64,000 bases of DNA from Paenibacillus sp. FSL H7-0737 (GTDB taxonomy: Bacteria; Bacillota; Bacilli; Paenibacillales; Paenibacillaceae): the NCBI RefSeq assembly GCF_000758545.1, contig NZ_CP009279.1:2294001-2358000 (forward strand). Direction: 5' to 3'. Below, one piece after another: positions 23,940 to 32,068 of the stretch (its first letter is position 1; the number at the start of each line of letters is the position of its first letter). The translations under genes and the position numbers were made by a program. A model generated the notes under the pieces. The model did no database searches. It was not told the DNA's origin and was given only the letters and a program-made list of their open reading frames with translations.

Positions 23940-26900
23940 GTGTCTGAATTTCTTTTTAAGCAACTATACTTACGGTCTTCTATAGGGGTTGCTGTAGTCT
24001 CTCCCAAGGAAGGGACCTTGATTCAATCCAATCCAGCACTTTGCCATATGCTTGGTTACTCTGAAGAAGAGCTTTTAAATATGCACTATCTAGATCTTAT
24101 TTATCCAGACGATGTAGCTGATGATGATCATTACGTTATCCTGAACAATCTCTTAGCAGATCCTGGGACCGCAATAGAGTTAGAAAGACGGTTCTTATGT
24201 AAGGGTGGCGAGATAATCTGGGTAGCTCAACATATATTTCTGATTCTTCAGGAGAACTCTAGTGAACCCCTTGTCTTGATCTCAGAACTTACGGATATCA
24301 CAGACCGAAAGCTTGCGGAAGATAAGATTCAGGAAGATCAGCATTTATATAATTTGATCACACAAAATACGCCGGATATGATTTCTTTTGGCGGACCAGA
24401 CGGTACACTGCACTACGTTTCTCCTTCAGTGGAGTTGTTGCTAGGATATCCTCCAGATGAAATGATCGGTACGAAAAGACCTGAGTATTATCACGCAGAA
24501 GATGCCCTTGAAATGACAAAACACGGAAAGCTCTATTCTGATACGGATGTGTATACACGCAGGGCCCGGCATAAAGACGGACATTATTTGTGGATTGAGA
24601 GCAGCTCACAGGTGGTACGCGATGATCAGGGGGAAATCAAGCAGATATTAACGATCGGCCGCGATATTACGCAGCGTAAGAAATATGAGGATATGCTGGC
24701 GCAAGCCCAATATCTTGCGAAAATGGGATCGTGGGAATGGGATGCGACGAAAACGCGGTTGACGGTTTCTAGAGAGATGCGTAACATTTTTGGCTTTTCG
24801 TTGGACGACAGCAATCATTCCTATTTTGATTACAAACGAGTGCTTTCCTGTATTGATCCAGATGATTTTACTAGACTTCAAAAGCTGGTTCACCAGTCTT
24901 TAGCGAATGGGACGAATGGCGAAGTTATGGTTAGAATTAAAAGTGCGGATGGAAAATTGAAGTTTCTTGATGCACACTGGGAAGTGACTAAAGATGAGGA
25001 AGGAAGAGTGCTACAGATCAGCGGGATTGCCCAGGATGTGACTGAACGTCATCAAATGGAGGAACAGATGCGTGATAGTGAGCAGAATTACCGACTCCTG
25101 TCGGAAAATTCAATGGATTTCATTTCACGTAATACAGCGGACGGAGACCTCATCTATCTATATGCATCACCCATTTGCCAGACGATGTTCGGCTATACAC
25201 CGGAAGAAATGTACGAAACGAGAGGTATTGATTACATACATCCTGAAGACAAGGAGAAAGTGGTGTCCTATCTTAGCAACTGTATGGAAGGGAAGAAGCT
25301 CGACCCTGTGACCTTTCGGTTTCTATGCAAAGATGGAACGTACATTTGGACGGAAACAACACTTCGCTATATTTACTCGGAGACCTTTGGAGGACGGGAG
25401 CTTGTGTGTGTAACCCGGGACATTGCGGAACGGGCGCGGCATTTTGAAGAAATAGAGAAGTTAAGTAACGAGCATGCTCTAATATTGAATTCGGTATCTG
25501 AAGGCATATTTGGTATGAATCTTGAAGGGGATACGATGTTCATCAATCCAGCGGCGATTACTATGCTAGGATACGATCCAACGGAATGGTTGAACAGCAA
25601 ATTCCATACGATTCATCAGACTTGGCTGGATAATGAGCCATTCTTGGGCATTCAGAAGACGCTGATTCCCTCGCACTTCAATAATCGCTCTTTTGATGAG
25701 AAAGAGGGTGTGTTTTGGAGGCAAGATGGTTCCAGCTTTTTGGTCAGATATCACATGACTCCTCTTTTTGATGGAGAAGAGCGGATCGGGGCTGTAGTGG
25801 TTTTCCGAGATATCACAGAAGAGAAGGAGATTGTGCGAGCGAAGGAGTCTGCAGAGGAAGCGGATCGGGCGAAATCGGAGTTTCTAGCGATCATGAGCCA
25901 TGAGCTGCGTACGCCTATGAACGGTATTATAGGAATGGCAGACTTGCTCTCAGGGACAGAGTTAAATGAAGAGCAGAGCTACTACACACAAATCATTACA
26001 AGTAGCGGAGAAGCATTGCTTCATATTTTGAATGAAGTGCTGGATTTCAGCAAAATTGAAGCAGGCATGATGACACTTGAACTGCAAATGGTGGATTTGC
26101 GTGAAGTGATACAGAACGTTAGTGAGCTATTCTATCCGAAGGTCAAAGAAAAAGGGTTGTTATTAACTATCAATATTGCACCTGATCTTCCATTTGTCAT
26201 TGTGACGGATGAGGCAAGATTGCGCCAAATTCTCGTAAACCTAGTGGGAAATGCGGTGAAATTTACGGAGACAGGTGAAATTAGTATTTCTGCCAGCCTG
26301 GAAGCTTCTCAAAAGTCAGGAAATATTATCGTTAAATTCATGGTTAAAGATACGGGCTTGGGGATCCCGGTTGCCAGTCAAGGGTTATTGTTTCAATCGT
26401 TCTCGCAATTGCATCCTTCCATTAATCGAAAATATGGCGGAACAGGACTTGGACTGGCGATTAGCAAAAAGCTGGTGGAGCTGCTCGGAGGAGCGATTGG
26501 TGTGAGGAGCTGTGAGGAACATGGCTCAGAGTTCTTTTTCACCGTGGAGGTCTCTTTGCCAAAAGAGGAATGGATTCAGAAGGTTACGCTCCACCCTTCA
26601 GTGGATACAGACAAAAGCAATAAACCTAACGCCAGAGCATCTGATACGGGAGAATATGGACCGATGTCTATTCTCATCGCTGAAGATCATCCTGTGAATC
26701 AGCAACTGATGCTGGCTTATATGAAGAAGAGGGGATACTTCCCTGACGTTGCATCAAATGGCGAGGAAGCAGTTCGAGCTGTGCTGTCCAAGGATTATGA
26801 TCTCGTCTTTATGGATATTCAGATGCCTATTATGGATGGGATAGAAGCAACAGGAATCATACGTGAGAAGCTCGGGCTGTCTCCCATTATTATTGCGGCC

Positions 26901-27029
26901 ACAGCTTTTGCCAGAAATGAAGATAAAGACATGTGTCTGAGTGCAGGAATGCAGGATTTCATCTCCAAGCCTATCTCCATAAAGGAGCTTGACAGGGTTT
27001 TAAAAGATTGGTCTACTCGGATTCGTTAA
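23940..27029 (+). CDS. Hybrid sensor histidine kinase with multiple PAS domains
   Basis: 1029 residues, with no membrane segment. About five PAS/PAC units (about 1-125, 130-250, 255-380, 385-505, 510-640; PAC ends read ITDRKLAED, DITQRKKYE, DVTERHQME, DIAERA and DITEEKE) precede HisKA with His654 in MSHELRTPMNG, HATPase_c (NLVGNAVKFTETGE, DTGLGIP, GGTGLGLAISK) and a C-terminal receiver with Asp959 (LVFMDIQMPIMDG). The start is GTG 23940, 9 bases after GAGGAG. There is no cognate regulator beside it, so it must pass phosphate on through an unlinked HPt protein or act by its own receiver. It is a cytoplasmic sensor of redox state or small ligand, which is inference. Confidence 0.93.
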   Translation: MSEFLFKQLYLRSSIGVAVVSPKEGTLIQSNPALCHMLGYSEEELLNMHYLDLIYPDDVADDDHYVILNNLLADPGTAIELERRFLCKGGEIIWVAQHIFLILQENSSEPLVLISELTDITDRKLAEDKIQEDQHLYNLITQNTPDMISFGGPDGTLHYVSPSVELLLGYPPDEMIGTKRPEYYHAEDALEMTKHGKLYSDTDVYTRRARHKDGHYLWIESSSQVVRDDQGEIKQILTIGRDITQRKKYEDMLAQAQYLAKMGSWEWDATKTRLTVSREMRNIFGFSLDDSNHSYFDYKRVLSCIDPDDFTRLQKLVHQSLANGTNGEVMVRIKSADGKLKFLDAHWEVTKDEEGRVLQISGIAQDVTERHQMEEQMRDSEQNYRLLSENSMDFISRNTADGDLIYLYASPICQTMFGYTPEEMYETRGIDYIHPEDKEKVVSYLSNCMEGKKLDPVTFRFLCKDGTYIWTETTLRYIYSETFGGRELVCVTRDIAERARHFEEIEKLSNEHALILNSVSEGIFGMNLEGDTMFINPAAITMLGYDPTEWLNSKFHTIHQTWLDNEPFLGIQKTLIPSHFNNRSFDEKEGVFWRQDGSSFLVRYHMTPLFDGEERIGAVVVFRDITEEKEIVRAKESAEEADRAKSEFLAIMSHELRTPMNGIIGMADLLSGTELNEEQSYYTQIITSSGEALLHILNEVLDFSKIEAGMMTLELQMVDLREVIQNVSELFYPKVKEKGLLLTINIAPDLPFVIVTDEARLRQILVNLVGNAVKFTETGEISISASLEASQKSGNIIVKFMVKDTGLGIPVASQGLLFQSFSQLHPSINRKYGGTGLGLAISKKLVELLGGAIGVRSCEEHGSEFFFTVEVSLPKEEWIQKVTLHPSVDTDKSNKPNARASDTGEYGPMSILIAEDHPVNQQLMLAYMKKRGYFPDVASNGEEAVRAVLSKDYDLVFMDIQMPIMDGIEATGIIREKLGLSPIIIAATAFARNEDKDMCLSAGMQDFISKPISIKELDRVLKDWSTRIR

Positions 27030-27044
27030 GGATGAGGAGTGTCA

Positions 27045-27096
27045 TTGACAAAAGGGCGTAAGATTAATATATTTGTAATCGTAATTATTACGAATA
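27045..27096 (+). promoter_or_regulatory. Promoter with Zur box before the NusG-II gene
   Basis: TTGACA (27045-27050), 17-bp spacer, TATATT (27068-27073), then the perfect palindrome TCGTAATTATTACGA (27079-27093) with TAA/ATA flanks. This matches the B. subtilis Zur consensus (ATCGTAATNATTACGAT). Its place just after the -10 box fits repression of the start site. The spacing from the box to the gene at 27122 is 28 bases. Confidence 0.8.
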
Positions 27097-27121
27097 TATT
27101 GTCAATGAAAGGACCCATACC

Positions 27122-27526
27122 TTGTTAAAGATGAAGCGTGGTGATTTTGTAATCATTTTTTTAGCTCTATTCGCAGCGGGTTTGATTTACGGAATCAAGT
27201 GGTGGGATACCCATAATGAACAGTATCAACAAGGCGATTTGAAAGCTGTAATTACGGTTGATGGTAAGGAATACAAGACCGTTTCTTTGACTAAAGAAGA
27301 GCAAATTATAGATATTCAATCGAAGTTTGGTCACAATACCTTAAAGGTATTTGATTACGGGATCCAAATGACATATTCTGACGCACCTTTGCGAATCGCT
27401 TTGGAAATGGGTTTTATTTCTAGGCCAAAGCAGCAAATCATCTGTATACCCGCCCGTATTATGGTTGAAGTATTTAACCCTAACGGATCTGTGGATGATG
27501 AGGATGAGCTGGACGCAATTATTTAG
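27122..27526 (+). CDS. NusG-domain-II membrane-anchored protein, Zur-box controlled
   Basis: 134 residues from TTG 27122 (AAAGGA 8 bases upstream); ATG 27131 has no ribosome site. One membrane helix (about 9-26) is followed by a NusG_II-type beta domain: AVITVDGKEYKTVSLTKEE, then HNTLKVFDYGIQ and RPKQQIICIPARIMVEV. Such proteins usually lie beside electron-transport or ApbE/Gx genes and their role is unknown. Here the promoter carries a Zur box, suggesting expression in zinc shortage. The tail overlaps the convergent YcgQ-like gene by 8 bases. Confidence 0.85.
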   Translation: MLKMKRGDFVIIFLALFAAGLIYGIKWWDTHNEQYQQGDLKAVITVDGKEYKTVSLTKEEQIIDIQSKFGHNTLKVFDYGIQMTYSDAPLRIALEMGFISRPKQQIICIPARIMVEVFNPNGSVDDEDELDAII

Positions 27527-28394
27527 TAGGGTTGGCCGTATTCGTCAAAGCTTTCCATGCGGTTATGGAGTCAGCACTCGTGTAAATGTAGGGTGTTGTT
27601 GGTTGCGCGATAGGTGTAATTGCTTCTGCGCGTATTTGCATCATTTCTCGGCCTTTGTATTGCACAATTTGAAGCTTGCCCCGAACCTCTATCCAGGTAT
27701 CAGTGGGCAAGCTTTTTAATTTGCCGGAATCAACCAACATCCCAAACGGAGTAGCATCGGCGGTACAGCACTGAACCAGAAATCTGCCAATGGCAAAAAC
27801 ATTCTCTGGCGTTTCACTGTCATCGCGGTATAGAAAACCGGAAACGGAAATTTCTTTGCCTTCAAATTGTTGTTTATACATGTCAATAGCGCCTAGTGTT
27901 TCAGAAAAAATATCAGAATACACAGGGATAGTAGGCTGCCCATATAAGATCTTAGCTAGCTCGGTGAGCTCCTCATGATAAGGATCAATCGATTCGAATC
28001 TAACAGCGTTGGTAGTCTCTGATGGTAAAGAGGAGAACGAAATCCCCTTTTTACTAGCGGCCATACTTCCCAAGGCACGATCAGGAAGTGCAAATCCAAG
28101 CAGCAGTGGAAACAGGAATAATCCATAAAGCGCTGTACTTTTAAATATGGAATGTGGGAGGCGATGCTCGCAGTCACATAGCACATTTCCCTTACCAAAT
28201 AAGGCTTGAATGGCCAAGCTGAGCGCCATTAGTGTCAGAGGAATCGGACATAACTGAACCCAGCGTGCTAGCTTAGGCGCTACATAATAATGCAAAGCGT
28301 CCTGCTGCACTAAATGCCCAATATAGAGAGCAAAGGCGAGCAGAATGACCGCCCTTAACAAATAGTGAAATCGGATGCTTCGAGAGTCATTCAT
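27519..28394 (-). CDS. TIGR03943-family permease subunit (B. subtilis YcgQ-like)
   Basis: 291 residues. Four membrane helices in the first about 125 residues, with two Cys near CDCEHRLPHS, then an extracytoplasmic domain with FEGKEISVSGFLYR, IGRFLVQCCTADATPFGM and WIEVRGKLQIVQY, the TIGR03943 signature. The family always pairs with a YcgR-type permease, as here (49 bases upstream). Comparative work links the pair to Zur-controlled zinc handling; the transport activity is not proven. AGGAGG precedes the ATG. Confidence 0.9.
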   Translation of the reverse strand: MNDSRSIRFHYLLRAVILLAFALYIGHLVQQDALHYYVAPKLARWVQLCPIPLTLMALSLAIQALFGKGNVLCDCEHRLPHSIFKSTALYGLFLFPLLLGFALPDRALGSMAASKKGISFSSLPSETTNAVRFESIDPYHEELTELAKILYGQPTIPVYSDIFSETLGAIDMYKQQFEGKEISVSGFLYRDDSETPENVFAIGRFLVQCCTADATPFGMLVDSGKLKSLPTDTWIEVRGKLQIVQYKGREMMQIRAEAITPIAQPTTPYIYTSADSITAWKALTNTANPTK

Positions 28395-28442: not shown

Positions 28443-29453
28443 TTACAGCCATAAGGACATGAGTACGGCTCCGATAAATACGCTCGAAAAGATAAGAAAG
28501 AACAAATAAAGAGCGAATTTGGTCTTAAACAGCGAGAGTAACATCAATGAATTTTTGAAATCTAACATCGGCCCAAATACCATAAAAGCGAGCAGTGCTC
28601 CTGCTGGAAAAGAATGTACAAAGGTGGAAGCTACAAAGGCATCTGAGGTGGAACAGAGCGAAAGCACAAATGCCAGGCCCATCATGAAAAAATAAGACCC
28701 GAGCGGCTTATCTCCGATCGCAGCCAAACTGTCCTGAACCATAAACGTCTGAATGCCAGCGGTCAATAGGCAGCCAATGATTAAGTATTTTCCCATCTCA
28801 AAAAATTCATCCGAGGTATGCACGAAGACGGCGGCTAACTTTCCTCCACGAGAATTATTATGATGAGTGTTATCGGTTTCCCACTGAACGCTAAGGCGTA
28901 TCGGGGACTTTTTCACCGTTGCATAGATAATCAAGCCTATAATACAGGCGACTGCAAAAGCTAGACCCATCCGGGCATAGGCCAGTTCTGAGTGGTTGCG
29001 AAATGCCGTCAGTGTTGCTCCATAGACGACTGGATTTAGGATGGGCCCGGATAAAATAAACACGATCGCCACGTAGACAGGCATCCCCTTATGGATTAGT
29101 CGGCGGACGAGAGGGATCATTCCACATTCGCATACTGGAAAAATAATTCCGAGCAGGCAAGCGAATAAAATGGCCGGAAGCGCCTGCCGTGGAATCCAGC
29201 GGGAGATCATTTCATCTGGGATAAAGACCCGAAGCAGCGAGGATAATAAAGCTCCTGCTAACACAAACGGCAAGGCTTCTAGCAAAATCCCGATAAAGCC
29301 GGTTTTGAACGTGTCGATGTACGCGTTGTCTAGTAGCTCCAGGTGATTTGGCACCCATATAAAACCAATGATAATCAGGAATGAGATCGGCAGAAGCAGC
29401 GGCAGTAGTTTTAAAGGGGAAAGGGTAGTCAAGGTTCGAATAAGGTGGACCAC
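28443..29453 (-). CDS. YcgR-like permease (DUF318/ArsP-type), partner of the YcgQ-like protein
   Basis: 336 residues with about eight membrane helices. LLEALPFVLAGALLSSLLRVF and FPVCECGMIPLVRRLIHKG are the ArsP/DUF318 signature with paired cysteines, and SGPILNPVVYGAT and CSTSDAFVASTF belong to the transport core. The start at 29453 (GTG) overlaps the end of the upstream CobW gene by 25 bases, so the true start may lie slightly inside. It is part of a three-gene minus-strand unit CobW, YcgR, YcgQ. Together they are a candidate zinc-related uptake or efflux set, which is inference. Confidence 0.85.
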   Translation of the reverse strand: MVHLIRTLTTLSPLKLLPLLLPISFLIIIGFIWVPNHLELLDNAYIDTFKTGFIGILLEALPFVLAGALLSSLLRVFIPDEMISRWIPRQALPAILFACLLGIIFPVCECGMIPLVRRLIHKGMPVYVAIVFILSGPILNPVVYGATLTAFRNHSELAYARMGLAFAVACIIGLIIYATVKKSPIRLSVQWETDNTHHNNSRGGKLAAVFVHTSDEFFEMGKYLIIGCLLTAGIQTFMVQDSLAAIGDKPLGSYFFMMGLAFVLSLCSTSDAFVASTFVHSFPAGALLAFMVFGPMLDFKNSLMLLSLFKTKFALYLFFLIFSSVFIGAVLMSLWL

Positions 29454-30457
29454 CGATCTGCCAGCAGTTCCTCATCTAAATTTATCCCGATGAATACCAC
29501 ATAAGGCATTCCAGGGTAACGTGATGCCTCCCAGCTTGTACGCATTCCGGCATATTGGACAAGTTGAACCGGTTCCTGTTCGGACAAAAGGATATGGCCT
29601 TTGGCACGGAGCAGGTTGTCACCCCATTCTTGAAAGAAAGCCTCTAGCCGTTCTTTGGAAGGCATTATAGTCCCTGCTTGCGGAATGGTTAACGTGATGG
29701 CGGTCACTTGGGAAAAAGAAGCGTGGGGCTCTTCTTGCCGTTCTTTTACTGCTGTAGCTCCCTGTTCTGAATTCATTTGTTTAAGAGTTGCGCCTTTAAA
29801 GGTTTGAGGTGCTCGTTGTGGCGCGGGAGCGATGATTTTACGTGGGGTGATTCCTGATAATATCGGTGAAAGGTTGATTTCGCTGTAATGGGTATATACG
29901 ATTTCAGCCTCTGTATTTTGTTTTCGGACACCTTTTTCAATTCGCCATAAGGTTTCAGGCTCTACAAGATCGCTCTTATTAACGACAATGAGATCAGCGG
30001 TGGACAGCTGCTTGCGAAGCGTACGAACCAGCTGTTTGTCAGAGGAGAGTCTGCTGTTATATTCCAAGGCGTTTTCTGCATCCAATAAGGTGATCGTAAA
30101 ATGCAATTCGACCCTTTCTTGAAGAGCGGATTCTTGTAATGTTTTGGCGATTTCTTCCGGATTCGCGACGCCAGTAAGCTCGATATAAATAGCATCGGGG
30201 CGTCCTCTTAGCAGTACCAGTAGGCTGTCTGCCAAATCCTCTTTACGGCTACAGCATACACATCCGTCCAGTAGCTTAGTCACGGTTGCACCCGTATGCT
30301 CCTGCAGAATATACCCATCTACATCTCTCTTTCCCAGCTCATTCATAACTACGCCAGGGTTCAGACCCCTTACCTTGCTCTCTTTCAGCAGGGACAACAG
30401 CAGAGTTGTCTTCCCGCTCCCCAGAAACCCGCTCAAAATAATTACTGGTATCTTCAT
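29429..30457 (-). CDS. CobW/COG0523-family GTPase (first copy)
   Basis: 342 residues from ATG 30457 with GGAGTGGAG upstream. Walker A GFLGSGKTT (about 9-17), the metal-binding CVCC motif (LLDGCVCCSRKEDL, about 60-73), G3/G4 ELTGVANPE and VNKSDLVE, and the CobW C-terminal domain. Family members (YciC, ZigA, YeiR, ZNG1) are metal-insertion chaperones acting when zinc is scarce. The middle has a low-complexity linker (about 215-250). It heads a minus-strand unit with the YcgR/YcgQ permease pair and lies beside the Zur-controlled L33/YciC genes, but no Zur box was found on its own 5' side nearer than the shared one at 30621. Confidence 0.88.
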   Translation of the reverse strand: MKIPVIILSGFLGSGKTTLLLSLLKESKVRGLNPGVVMNELGKRDVDGYILQEHTGATVTKLLDGCVCCSRKEDLADSLLVLLRGRPDAIYIELTGVANPEEIAKTLQESALQERVELHFTITLLDAENALEYNSRLSSDKQLVRTLRKQLSTADLIVVNKSDLVEPETLWRIEKGVRKQNTEAEIVYTHYSEINLSPILSGITPRKIIAPAPQRAPQTFKGATLKQMNSEQGATAVKERQEEPHASFSQVTAITLTIPQAGTIMPSKERLEAFFQEWGDNLLRAKGHILLSEQEPVQLVQYAGMRTSWEASRYPGMPYVVFIGINLDEELLADRWSTLFEP

Positions 30458-30583
30458 GATCTCCACTCCTGCCTGATTCTCTTGGAAATACAAGAATCAT
30501 ATTTTTATATTTCCATCTATACGTGATTTGTTCGCAAGAAAGACCACAAAATTAAGAGAGTTGGGATTTTTACAAGATCATAG

Positions 30584-30640
30584 TTGACAGATTGTGAATA
30601 AAACGTGTACGATATGTTAATCGTAATTATTACGATTTAA
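30584..30640 (+). promoter_or_regulatory. Promoter with Zur box before rpmG-yciC
   Basis: TTGACA (30584-30589), 18-bp spacer, TACGAT (30608-30613). The palindrome TTAATCGTAATTATTACGAT (from 30617) carries the core TCGTAATTATTACGA at 30621-30635, identical to the core at 27079. The extended arms TTAA...TTAA are also symmetric. It lies over the start site, 17 bases before the L33 ATG. It could also serve the divergent CobW operon, though no clear minus-strand promoter was seen. Confidence 0.88.
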
Positions 30641-30806: not shown

Positions 30807-30856
30807 GAGCTATAAATGCCAAACATAAATGCTAATCAATGATAGGAGTGATCGGA

Positions 30857-32068
30857 ATGAAAAAAATCCCCGTTACGGTGCTAAGTGGCTACTTGGGCTC
30901 TGGAAAAACAACACTGCTAAATCATGTCTTGCACAACCGTGAAGGCTTGAAGGTTGCTGTTATCGTTAACGATATGAGTGAAGTGAATGTGGACGCCAAC
31001 CTGGTGAAGTCAGGTAATGTGCTTTCTAGAACGGAAGAGAAATTAGTGGAAATGTCTAACGGATGTATCTGCTGTACACTCCGCGACGATTTGATTGTCG
31101 AAGTACAAAAGCTGGCAGCTGAAGGCCGTTTTGATTATATCCTCATTGAATCATCTGGCATTAGCGAGCCTGTTCCGGTGGCACAGACTTTTACTTATGC
31201 GAACCCAGAACTGGATATTGATTTGACTTCACTCGCTCAATTGGACACGATGGTGACCGTTGTGGATGCTGGCCGATTCTGGTATGACTTCTCTTCTGGT
31301 GATAGTCTGATCGATCGTAATCAAACGGCTGGTGAAGACGATTATCGCGATATTGTGGATTTGCTCATTGATCAGATCGAGACTTGTGATGTGTTATTGC
31401 TTAATAAGTGTGATCTGCTAGAAGAAGAAGAGCTTAACAAGCTTGAAGCTGTGCTTCGCAAACTTCAGCCGACAGCCAAGCTGATCCGTACGGTTAACGG
31501 AGTGGTAGATCCGAAGGAGATTCTTAATACTGGATTGTTTGATTTTGAAAAAACAAGCTTGTCCTCCGGTTGGATTACGGAGCTTAACAAGGAGACACAT
31601 ACGCCTGAGACGGAGGAATACGGAATATCTTCTTTTGTCTATCGCAGGAGAACACCCTTTCATCCGGAAAGGTTAAGCTTTTTCTTTAGTCATTGGCCGG
31701 AGGAAGTTGTCAGAGCGAAAGGGATTGTATGGGTTGCCGCAGAGGGTGATCTTGCAGCAAGTATCAGCCAGGCTGGACCCTCGATTCAGTTCGGACCTGC
31801 CGGCTACTGGCTAGCTACAATGCCTGAGGATCAGCAGCAGGAGGTATTGGAAAGCGAACCTGAAATGAAAGCCAAGTGGGACGAGCAGTGGGGCGATCGA
31901 ATGAATGAAATCGTGTTTATCGGTGTTAGTATGGACTCAGCACAAATCGAAGCGAGATTGGATCGATGTTTGTTGACGAAAGATGAGTTGAAGCAGGATT
32001 GGACAACGTTTAATAATCCACTTCCGTGGCCTGTTGAAGAACTCCTTGCGGCAGTGGCTGAGGAATAG
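30857..32068 (+). CDS. yciC: CobW/COG0523-family GTPase YciC type (second copy)
   Basis: 403 residues from ATG 30857 (AGGAGTG upstream), close to the 397 of B. subtilis YciC. Walker A GYLGSGKTT, metal motif NGCICCTLRDDL, switch region ESSGISEPVPVA, LNKCDL, and the CobW C-terminal domain with PFHPERLSFFFSHWP. YciC is a Zur-regulated zinc metallochaperone of the cytoplasm. It is transcribed behind L33 from the Zur-box promoter, which fits. It differs clearly from the copy at 29429 and is longer in the C-terminal part. Confidence 0.93.
   Translation: MKKIPVTVLSGYLGSGKTTLLNHVLHNREGLKVAVIVNDMSEVNVDANLVKSGNVLSRTEEKLVEMSNGCICCTLRDDLIVEVQKLAAEGRFDYILIESSGISEPVPVAQTFTYANPELDIDLTSLAQLDTMVTVVDAGRFWYDFSSGDSLIDRNQTAGEDDYRDIVDLLIDQIETCDVLLLNKCDLLEEEELNKLEAVLRKLQPTAKLIRTVNGVVDPKEILNTGLFDFEKTSLSSGWITELNKETHTPETEEYGISSFVYRRRTPFHPERLSFFFSHWPEEVVRAKGIVWVAAEGDLAASISQAGPSIQFGPAGYWLATMPEDQQQEVLESEPEMKAKWDEQWGDRMNEIVFIGVSMDSAQIEARLDRCLLTKDELKQDWTTFNNPLPWPVEELLAAVAEE

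Follow-up and report, generated by a model that had tools for sequence, protein, structure and literature searches.

A probable Zur-regulated, cysteine-poor paralogue of EetA in Paenibacillus

Introduction

Zur regulons are in effect lists of the proteins that are swapped or added when zinc runs out. In B. subtilis, according to the parts of the published accounts drawn on here, the ribosomal proteins L33 (RpmGC), L31 (RpmEB) and S14 (RpsNB) each have a Cys-depleted second copy under a Zur box and a Cys form encoded in the same genome (PMC5007448, PMC4324032), and known targets with such boxes are repressed with zinc and released in shortage (PMC4324032, PMC5007448, PMC6336718). The box described below is also that of the B. 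subtilis and B. anthracis Zur regulons, which have L33 (rpmG), yciC and znu targets in common with the genome studied here; in B. anthracis the common targets extend to an ArsP_1 permease and a COG0523 protein of the CobW type, whose promoters bound purified Zur (PMC6336718). The accounts of these two regulons used here name no NusG domain II (NusG_II) gene among the targets. The literature that we searched contained nothing linking Zur or zinc starvation with NusG domain II or EetA in Paenibacillus, and among papers naming NusG domain II or PF07009 no title concerned zinc.

The closest described NusG_II system is that of EetA, which in Listeria we take to belong to PF07009. As given in the portion of PMC9973259 available to us, 3,328 genomes have eetA together with eetB, whose product in Listeria serves as the subunit of an exporter that binds FAD. 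Solved structures 4esn, 2kpp and 3ld7 (both Lin0431) and 4obi share the NusG_II domain by sequence, and their names give no function.

Here we describe a NusG_II gene within a 64,000-nucleotide stretch of the Paenibacillus sp. FSL H7-0737 chromosome (the window) that carries a Zur-type box in its promoter. A conserved new member of the Zur regulon beyond zinc uptake and the ribosome would suggest that a step sensitive to zinc has been overlooked at the cell surface. For the NusG_II/EetA family it would supply a concrete condition, zinc shortage, under which to seek its function.

Results and Discussion

A Zur-type box in the promoter of a NusG_II gene

The gene at 27122 to 27526 (plus strand) starts with TTG at 27122 and encodes a NusG_II membrane protein of 134 amino acids belonging to the Zur-linked set of NusG_II proteins, which we call group Z. 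It is preceded by the promoter TTGACA-17-TATATT (27045 to 27073, plus strand; TTGACA at 27045-27050 and TATATT at 27068-27073), identified by direct reading and by a promoter scan in which it scored 11/12; the scanned region contains five promoter-like sites, against a mean of 2.2 after shuffling. Five nucleotides behind TATATT, and across the expected transcription start, lies the 15-mer TCGTAATTATTACGA (27079 to 27093, plus strand), followed after 28 nucleotides by the TTG start, with a ribosome-binding site AAAGGA read directly at 27108 to 27113 on the same strand. An earlier note on this DNA had reported this promoter and 15-mer and had called the latter identical to the core in front of the L33 gene; direct reading of 27045-27093 bears out the first statement, and the copy before L33 proves to be the only other perfect one in the genome.

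The 7-1-7 Zur pattern TCGTAATNATTACGA matches the NusG_II promoter with no mismatches at 27079-27093. When up to three mismatches are allowed the window contains nine matches, two of them perfect (27079 and 30621) and the other seven with three mismatches; 3.47 are expected by chance, and nine were reached in 2 of 100 shuffles. In the entire genome of 6,765,883 bases the only perfect copies are those before the NusG_II and L33 genes, where 0.026 per genome and 0.00024 per window are expected (order-1 model, window composition), and there are three boxes with one mismatch, one before znuA and two within reading frames. At two mismatches or fewer, the forward strand of the whole genome yields 57 box matches and 53 for the reversed control pattern, a count so little above the control that near-perfect sites alone carry weight by themselves. 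High affinity of B. subtilis Zur requires a 9-1-9 inverted repeat, according to the part of PMC4324032 consulted; in this form the L33 site, AATCGTAATTATTACGATT, is perfect and the NusG_II site, AATCGTAATTATTACGAAT, has one mismatch in an outer arm.

The box could be a chance palindrome or the site of another regulator such as Fur or PerR, as its palindrome family is common to Fur-type regulators and looser matches are no commoner than the control. However, the perfect match is far above its chance expectation, the same 15-mer stands before L33, and the box is both kept before most orthologues and linked to zinc genes (see below), so that we consider this explanation very improbable.

Several other features surround the gene. 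Directly upstream of the promoter and in the same direction is a 1029-aa frame (23940-27029) whose translation resembles a hybrid histidine kinase with several PAS domains; in several relatives (L053, L054, L057, L059, L061, L063 and L064) a membrane-like frame of 60-68 aa with a shared FFG.GPVLFADG motif sits between the histidine kinase and NusG_II genes, for which the window has no space. A minus-strand promoter opposite, TTGACA-16-TACGAT over the box, was discarded because its TTGACA is already absent in near relatives (e.g. L018), and no terminator-like sites were found in 26950-27700.

The NusG_II protein and its neighbors in the window

The protein matches PF07009 with 81.3 bits, above the curated cut-off of 29.6. 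Its nearest named relatives are from Paenibacillus, the closest protein cluster, 97% identical, carrying the name Paenibacillus etheri, and its solved relatives by sequence are 4esn (E 1e-9), 2kpp (5.7e-5), 3ld7 (2e-4) and 4obi (0.022). It has one strong hydrophobic stretch, with its maximum at residues 7-25 and basic residues before it, and is thus predicted to be a one-pass membrane protein with the NusG_II domain outside the cell. This stretch and the solved relatives are the sequence basis for the membrane anchor and outside beta domain proposed in the earlier note.

Convergent with the NusG_II gene and overlapping its end by 8 bases is a minus-strand gene for a DUF1980/TIGR03943 putative permease subunit (27519 to 28394), followed on the same strand by genes assigned through domain matches to an ArsP_1 permease (28443 to 29453) and a COG0523/CobW GTPase (29429 to 30493). 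The second perfect Zur box (30621 to 30635, plus strand) precedes plus-strand genes for ribosomal protein L33 (30657 to 30806; PF00471) and a YciC/ZigA-type COG0523 GTPase (30839 to 32068; PF02492 and PF07683), the latter scoring 532 bits against NF038288, below the cut-off of 600. We call this L33 zinc-sparing because it has two Cys only, compared to the four that the zinc form presumably has. Elsewhere in the genome a Fur paralogue (C1:4877658), a candidate Zur, lies 3 kb from the boxed znuA and is 43% identical to the Fur-family gene of a related znuCBA operon (in L070, described below).

Conservation of the box among orthologues in the genus

A scan of 100 genomes of the genus found a NusG_II match in 89, from which we assembled 64 full-length group Z orthologues in 63 genomes. 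Within 160 bp upstream, 46 of the 64 have a box, fifteen of them perfect and 22, six and three with one, two and three mismatches respectively; a box with at most one mismatch is thus found in 37/64, although the orthologues share kinship and these counts are of non-independent events, so that a Fisher value computed from them is not to be taken as a real probability. Counted from the residue aligned to the first residue of the window protein, the starts being unproven, the boxes lie at -34 to -60, mostly at -43 to -48. GTAA and TTAC are conserved in 100% of 30 non-redundant boxed loci, which were chosen for the box, and the promoter spacer is near random. Five control patterns never came below three mismatches before the orthologues, and reached three at one locus each for two of the patterns. 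The upstream regions of 20 paralogues of the second kind discussed below (group A) contain no box with two mismatches or fewer and a single one with three.

In the remaining 18 orthologues the nearest box-like site within 160 bp has at least five mismatches. In one of these (L038, of which L192 is the complete version) the promoter is the same, but the leader is longer and the box, with one mismatch, lies 244 nt upstream of the start. The box that the earlier note expected before homologous NusG_II genes is therefore present before 46/64 and, further off, before L038, but is missing in part of the orthologues; it is far from absent in all of them. A fragment left out of the set (L087, genome G068) is the broken remnant of a NusG_II gene in a zinc island, where the box before L33 is intact.

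Linkage to zinc genes and its exceptions

A box and zinc-type neighbors occur together in 46 of the 64 orthologues (45 by neighbor count, plus L038). One orthologue (L076) has a box without such neighbors, and another (L070) has the neighbors without a box of its own, being the last gene of a znuC-znuB-znuA-(Fur family)-nusG operon with boxes of zero and one mismatch before znuC. A search of 35 island loci, with some genomes represented twice, placed a znuC gene (at least 63% identity) close to 27 of them.

For sixteen of the 64 there is no box within 200 bp and no zinc gene among the neighbors, which argues that the protein does not serve zinc metabolism exclusively. One of these (L079) stands behind a gene for an AAA ATPase that has a box with one mismatch, and the other fifteen lie in different clusters; six share one cluster, typed by sequence similarity only, and two belong to a cluster whose L072 example has candidate csoR and copA genes close by, judged by letters alone. 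A further type of cluster, seen in L071, L073-L077, L085 and L086, places the group Z gene with siroheme-decarboxylase-like and radical-SAM genes (Pfam on L071 only), and its member L076 is the one that has its own one-mismatch box.

Across the family, 163/394 genomes and 11/19 genera have a NusG_II match. In a second genus, represented by the best-scoring 18 of at least 22 similar loci, 16/18 lie among CobW, DUF1980, ArsP, YciC, L33, znu or Fur-family genes in orders that vary: some copies precede boxed yciC-L33-znu, some follow L33 or a Fur-family gene, and some adjoin ArsP-DUF1980. Of the 18 loci, 9 have their own box at two mismatches or fewer and 11 at three or fewer. In Saccharibacillus the NusG_II gene stands behind an AAA gene, and in 5/5 distinct loci TAGTAATNATTACTA, with two mismatches, precedes that AAA gene. 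This linkage to zinc genes, which survives rearrangement, is the best evidence here for a functional tie to zinc.

One reading of these arrangements is that, under Zur control, the protein assists ZnuABC in zinc uptake or the adjacent ArsP_1/DUF1980 permease in metal permeation, and is not a stand-in for EetA. The NusG_II gene does face DUF1980-ArsP in the window and in 30 loci with 1.5-kb flanks only (L016-L045; 29 have exactly these two genes and one has more), it closes the znuCBA-zur operon of L070, and several second-genus copies adjoin yciC-L33-znu genes. However, there is no constant partner, the second genus alone having YciC-L33-znu, ArsP-DUF1980 and L33-behind arrangements, and clade members also occur in clusters without zinc genes. 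The window protein moreover has one Cys and two His (the group Z means are 1.15 and 2.36), so that it is no evident zinc carrier. We regard the accessory role as possible but rather unlikely. Two narrower versions were rejected: a dedicated partner of one neighbor, since the gene orders are too variable, and a zinc-storage or zinc-capture protein, since His and Cys are too few.

An EetA-type paralogue and the cysteine pattern

Another NusG_II gene of this genome, at C1:545414, was overlooked in the earlier note; its product carries three Cys and a His (CCCH), and a PF07456 (eetB) gene follows it. In 20/20 loci of this kind (group A), taken from a larger number listed, an eetB-like gene (PF07456) lies behind the NusG_II gene, and we therefore identify the Cys-rich paralogue as EetA by synteny. 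No eetB was found near group Z genes in 63 loci searched (some genomes twice), and the neighbors in the window are other genes. Compared to EetA, then, the Zur-linked copies have no nearby eetB, show little of the Cys/His pattern and in most cases have a Zur box. Among the 63 genomes with group Z genes, 54 list a group-A-like second match and two list one match only; seven have no group-A-like gene among the matches listed. The earlier note held that the NusG_II protein has no assigned function; the synteny of the paralogue with eetB does provide the family with a lead.

The group A pattern is C-x4-C...C-x2-H, its Cys at positions 88, 93 and 108 and its His at 111 in the numbering of the window protein, with CCC in 78 and CCCH in 75 of 80 proteins, and all 62 further proteins from a profile search have CCC. 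In group Z, 76/95 proteins read AACA, with Cys 3 nearly always kept. A quick tree of 129 columns and 114 rows with long branches, from which we take nothing but the separation of group Z from all other rows (SH-aLRT 98), includes 88 rows of the Zur clade (two of them, L138 and L190, being one locus): Cys 2 is absent in 88/88 and His in 87/88, and all 26 other rows have three Cys. Second-genus copies keep Cys 1 in 14/18 (CSCN). Five distant loci of lactic type (L196, L203, L204, L206 and L210) have lost Cys 1 and 2, keep Cys 3 and His, and have no box near; among the solved relatives 4esn keeps all three Cys and Lin0431 lacks the first two. A third NusG_II type (L088-L092), in which the three Cys are present but Leu replaces His (CCCL), adjoins a VTT-domain gene in L088 (the only locus of these with Pfam assignments), and has an upstream Zur box in 0/5 loci.

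The group Z members without a box also lack the Cys pattern, so that its loss belongs to the clade as a whole and not to the boxed copies alone; Cys loss and Zur control were not found to go strictly together. The loss may be explained by zinc, by a disulfide or by neither. If the Cys pair of EetA-type proteins forms a disulfide outside the cell, the Zur-linked copy could be a redox-insensitive form that joined the zinc response for another reason. The joint loss of Cys 1 and 2 with retention of Cys 3 and His in the five lactic-type loci and Lin0431 would fit such a pair, as would the probable location of the domain outside the membrane. The Zur-linked clade loses His as well, though, and 16/114 tree rows keep Cys 1 without Cys 2 (CSCN), unlike the loss of a pair, and we give this redox explanation only tentative credence.

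A proposed role in zinc starvation

The box, the promoter and their conservation are features of the sequences themselves, and comparative genomics raises Zur control of the gene from a guess to a strong inference. The conserved box and the mostly zinc-uptake gene neighbors indicate that Paenibacillus and related soil bacteria very probably produce the protein in zinc shortage, and we consider it highly probable that the promoter of the gene at 27122-27526 binds Zur and responds to zinc. It is probable too, with good though somewhat lesser confidence, that this gene is a member of the Zur regulon whose product is a Cys-poor paralogue of EetA. A Zur operator placed over the start site so as to fit repression had been claimed in the earlier note, and it finds support in the conserved box, the zinc-gene linkage and the znuCBA-zur operon. 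With sufficient zinc, Zn-Zur would occupy the box over the transcription start and block the promoter; as zinc falls Zur would be released, and the cell would express the NusG_II gene together with the adjacent genes for L33, the COG0523 GTPases and the permease. The Cys-poor paralogue could then replace EetA, or a different NusG_II protein that contains Cys, on the outer side of the membrane for as long as zinc is scarce.

That the group Z protein stands in for EetA under zinc starvation, by analogy with the zinc-free ribosomal paralogues L33 and L31, is the mechanism that we favor, though as a tentative proposal held with low confidence. Here, as for the ribosomal paralogues of B. subtilis, one genome encodes both a Cys form and a Cys-depleted second copy that a Zur box precedes. 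However, the protein here is a membrane-anchored NusG_II protein, zinc binding by the Cys form is hypothetical, and unboxed clade members are Cys-depleted too. Other facts also count against the proposal: the sixteen orthologues without box and zinc neighbors, the second-genus copies that mostly keep Cys 1, and the retention of Cys 3 in group Z and, with His, in the lactic-type loci that lack Cys 1 and 2. The loss of a Cys pair (e.g. a disulfide) would explain this retention no less well than the loss of a zinc site. In addition, deletion of eetA in Listeria caused no electron-transfer defect, according to the part of PMC9973259 available to us. An extension of the proposal is somewhat more doubtful. 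EetA-type proteins might hold zinc outside the cell through C-x4-C...C-x2-H, with the Zur-repressed, ligand-poor copy of the Paenibacillaceae replacing them or freeing their zinc in shortage; the C+/C- swap of ribosomal proteins would then have been moved to the cell envelope and flavin export.

A small AAA ATPase with Zur-type boxes

The small AAA ATPase (~270 aa) that adjoins NusG_II in L079 (5167-5994) and in Saccharibacillus (L137-L141) has in the window genome a far match only (6.3e-22), and its nearest NCBIfam model is IteA (256 bits, below the cut-off of 510). In 18 of 30 loci (L142-L171) a Zur-type box with two mismatches or fewer lies within 200 bp upstream of its gene, which on sequence grounds looks like another unrecognised Zur target.
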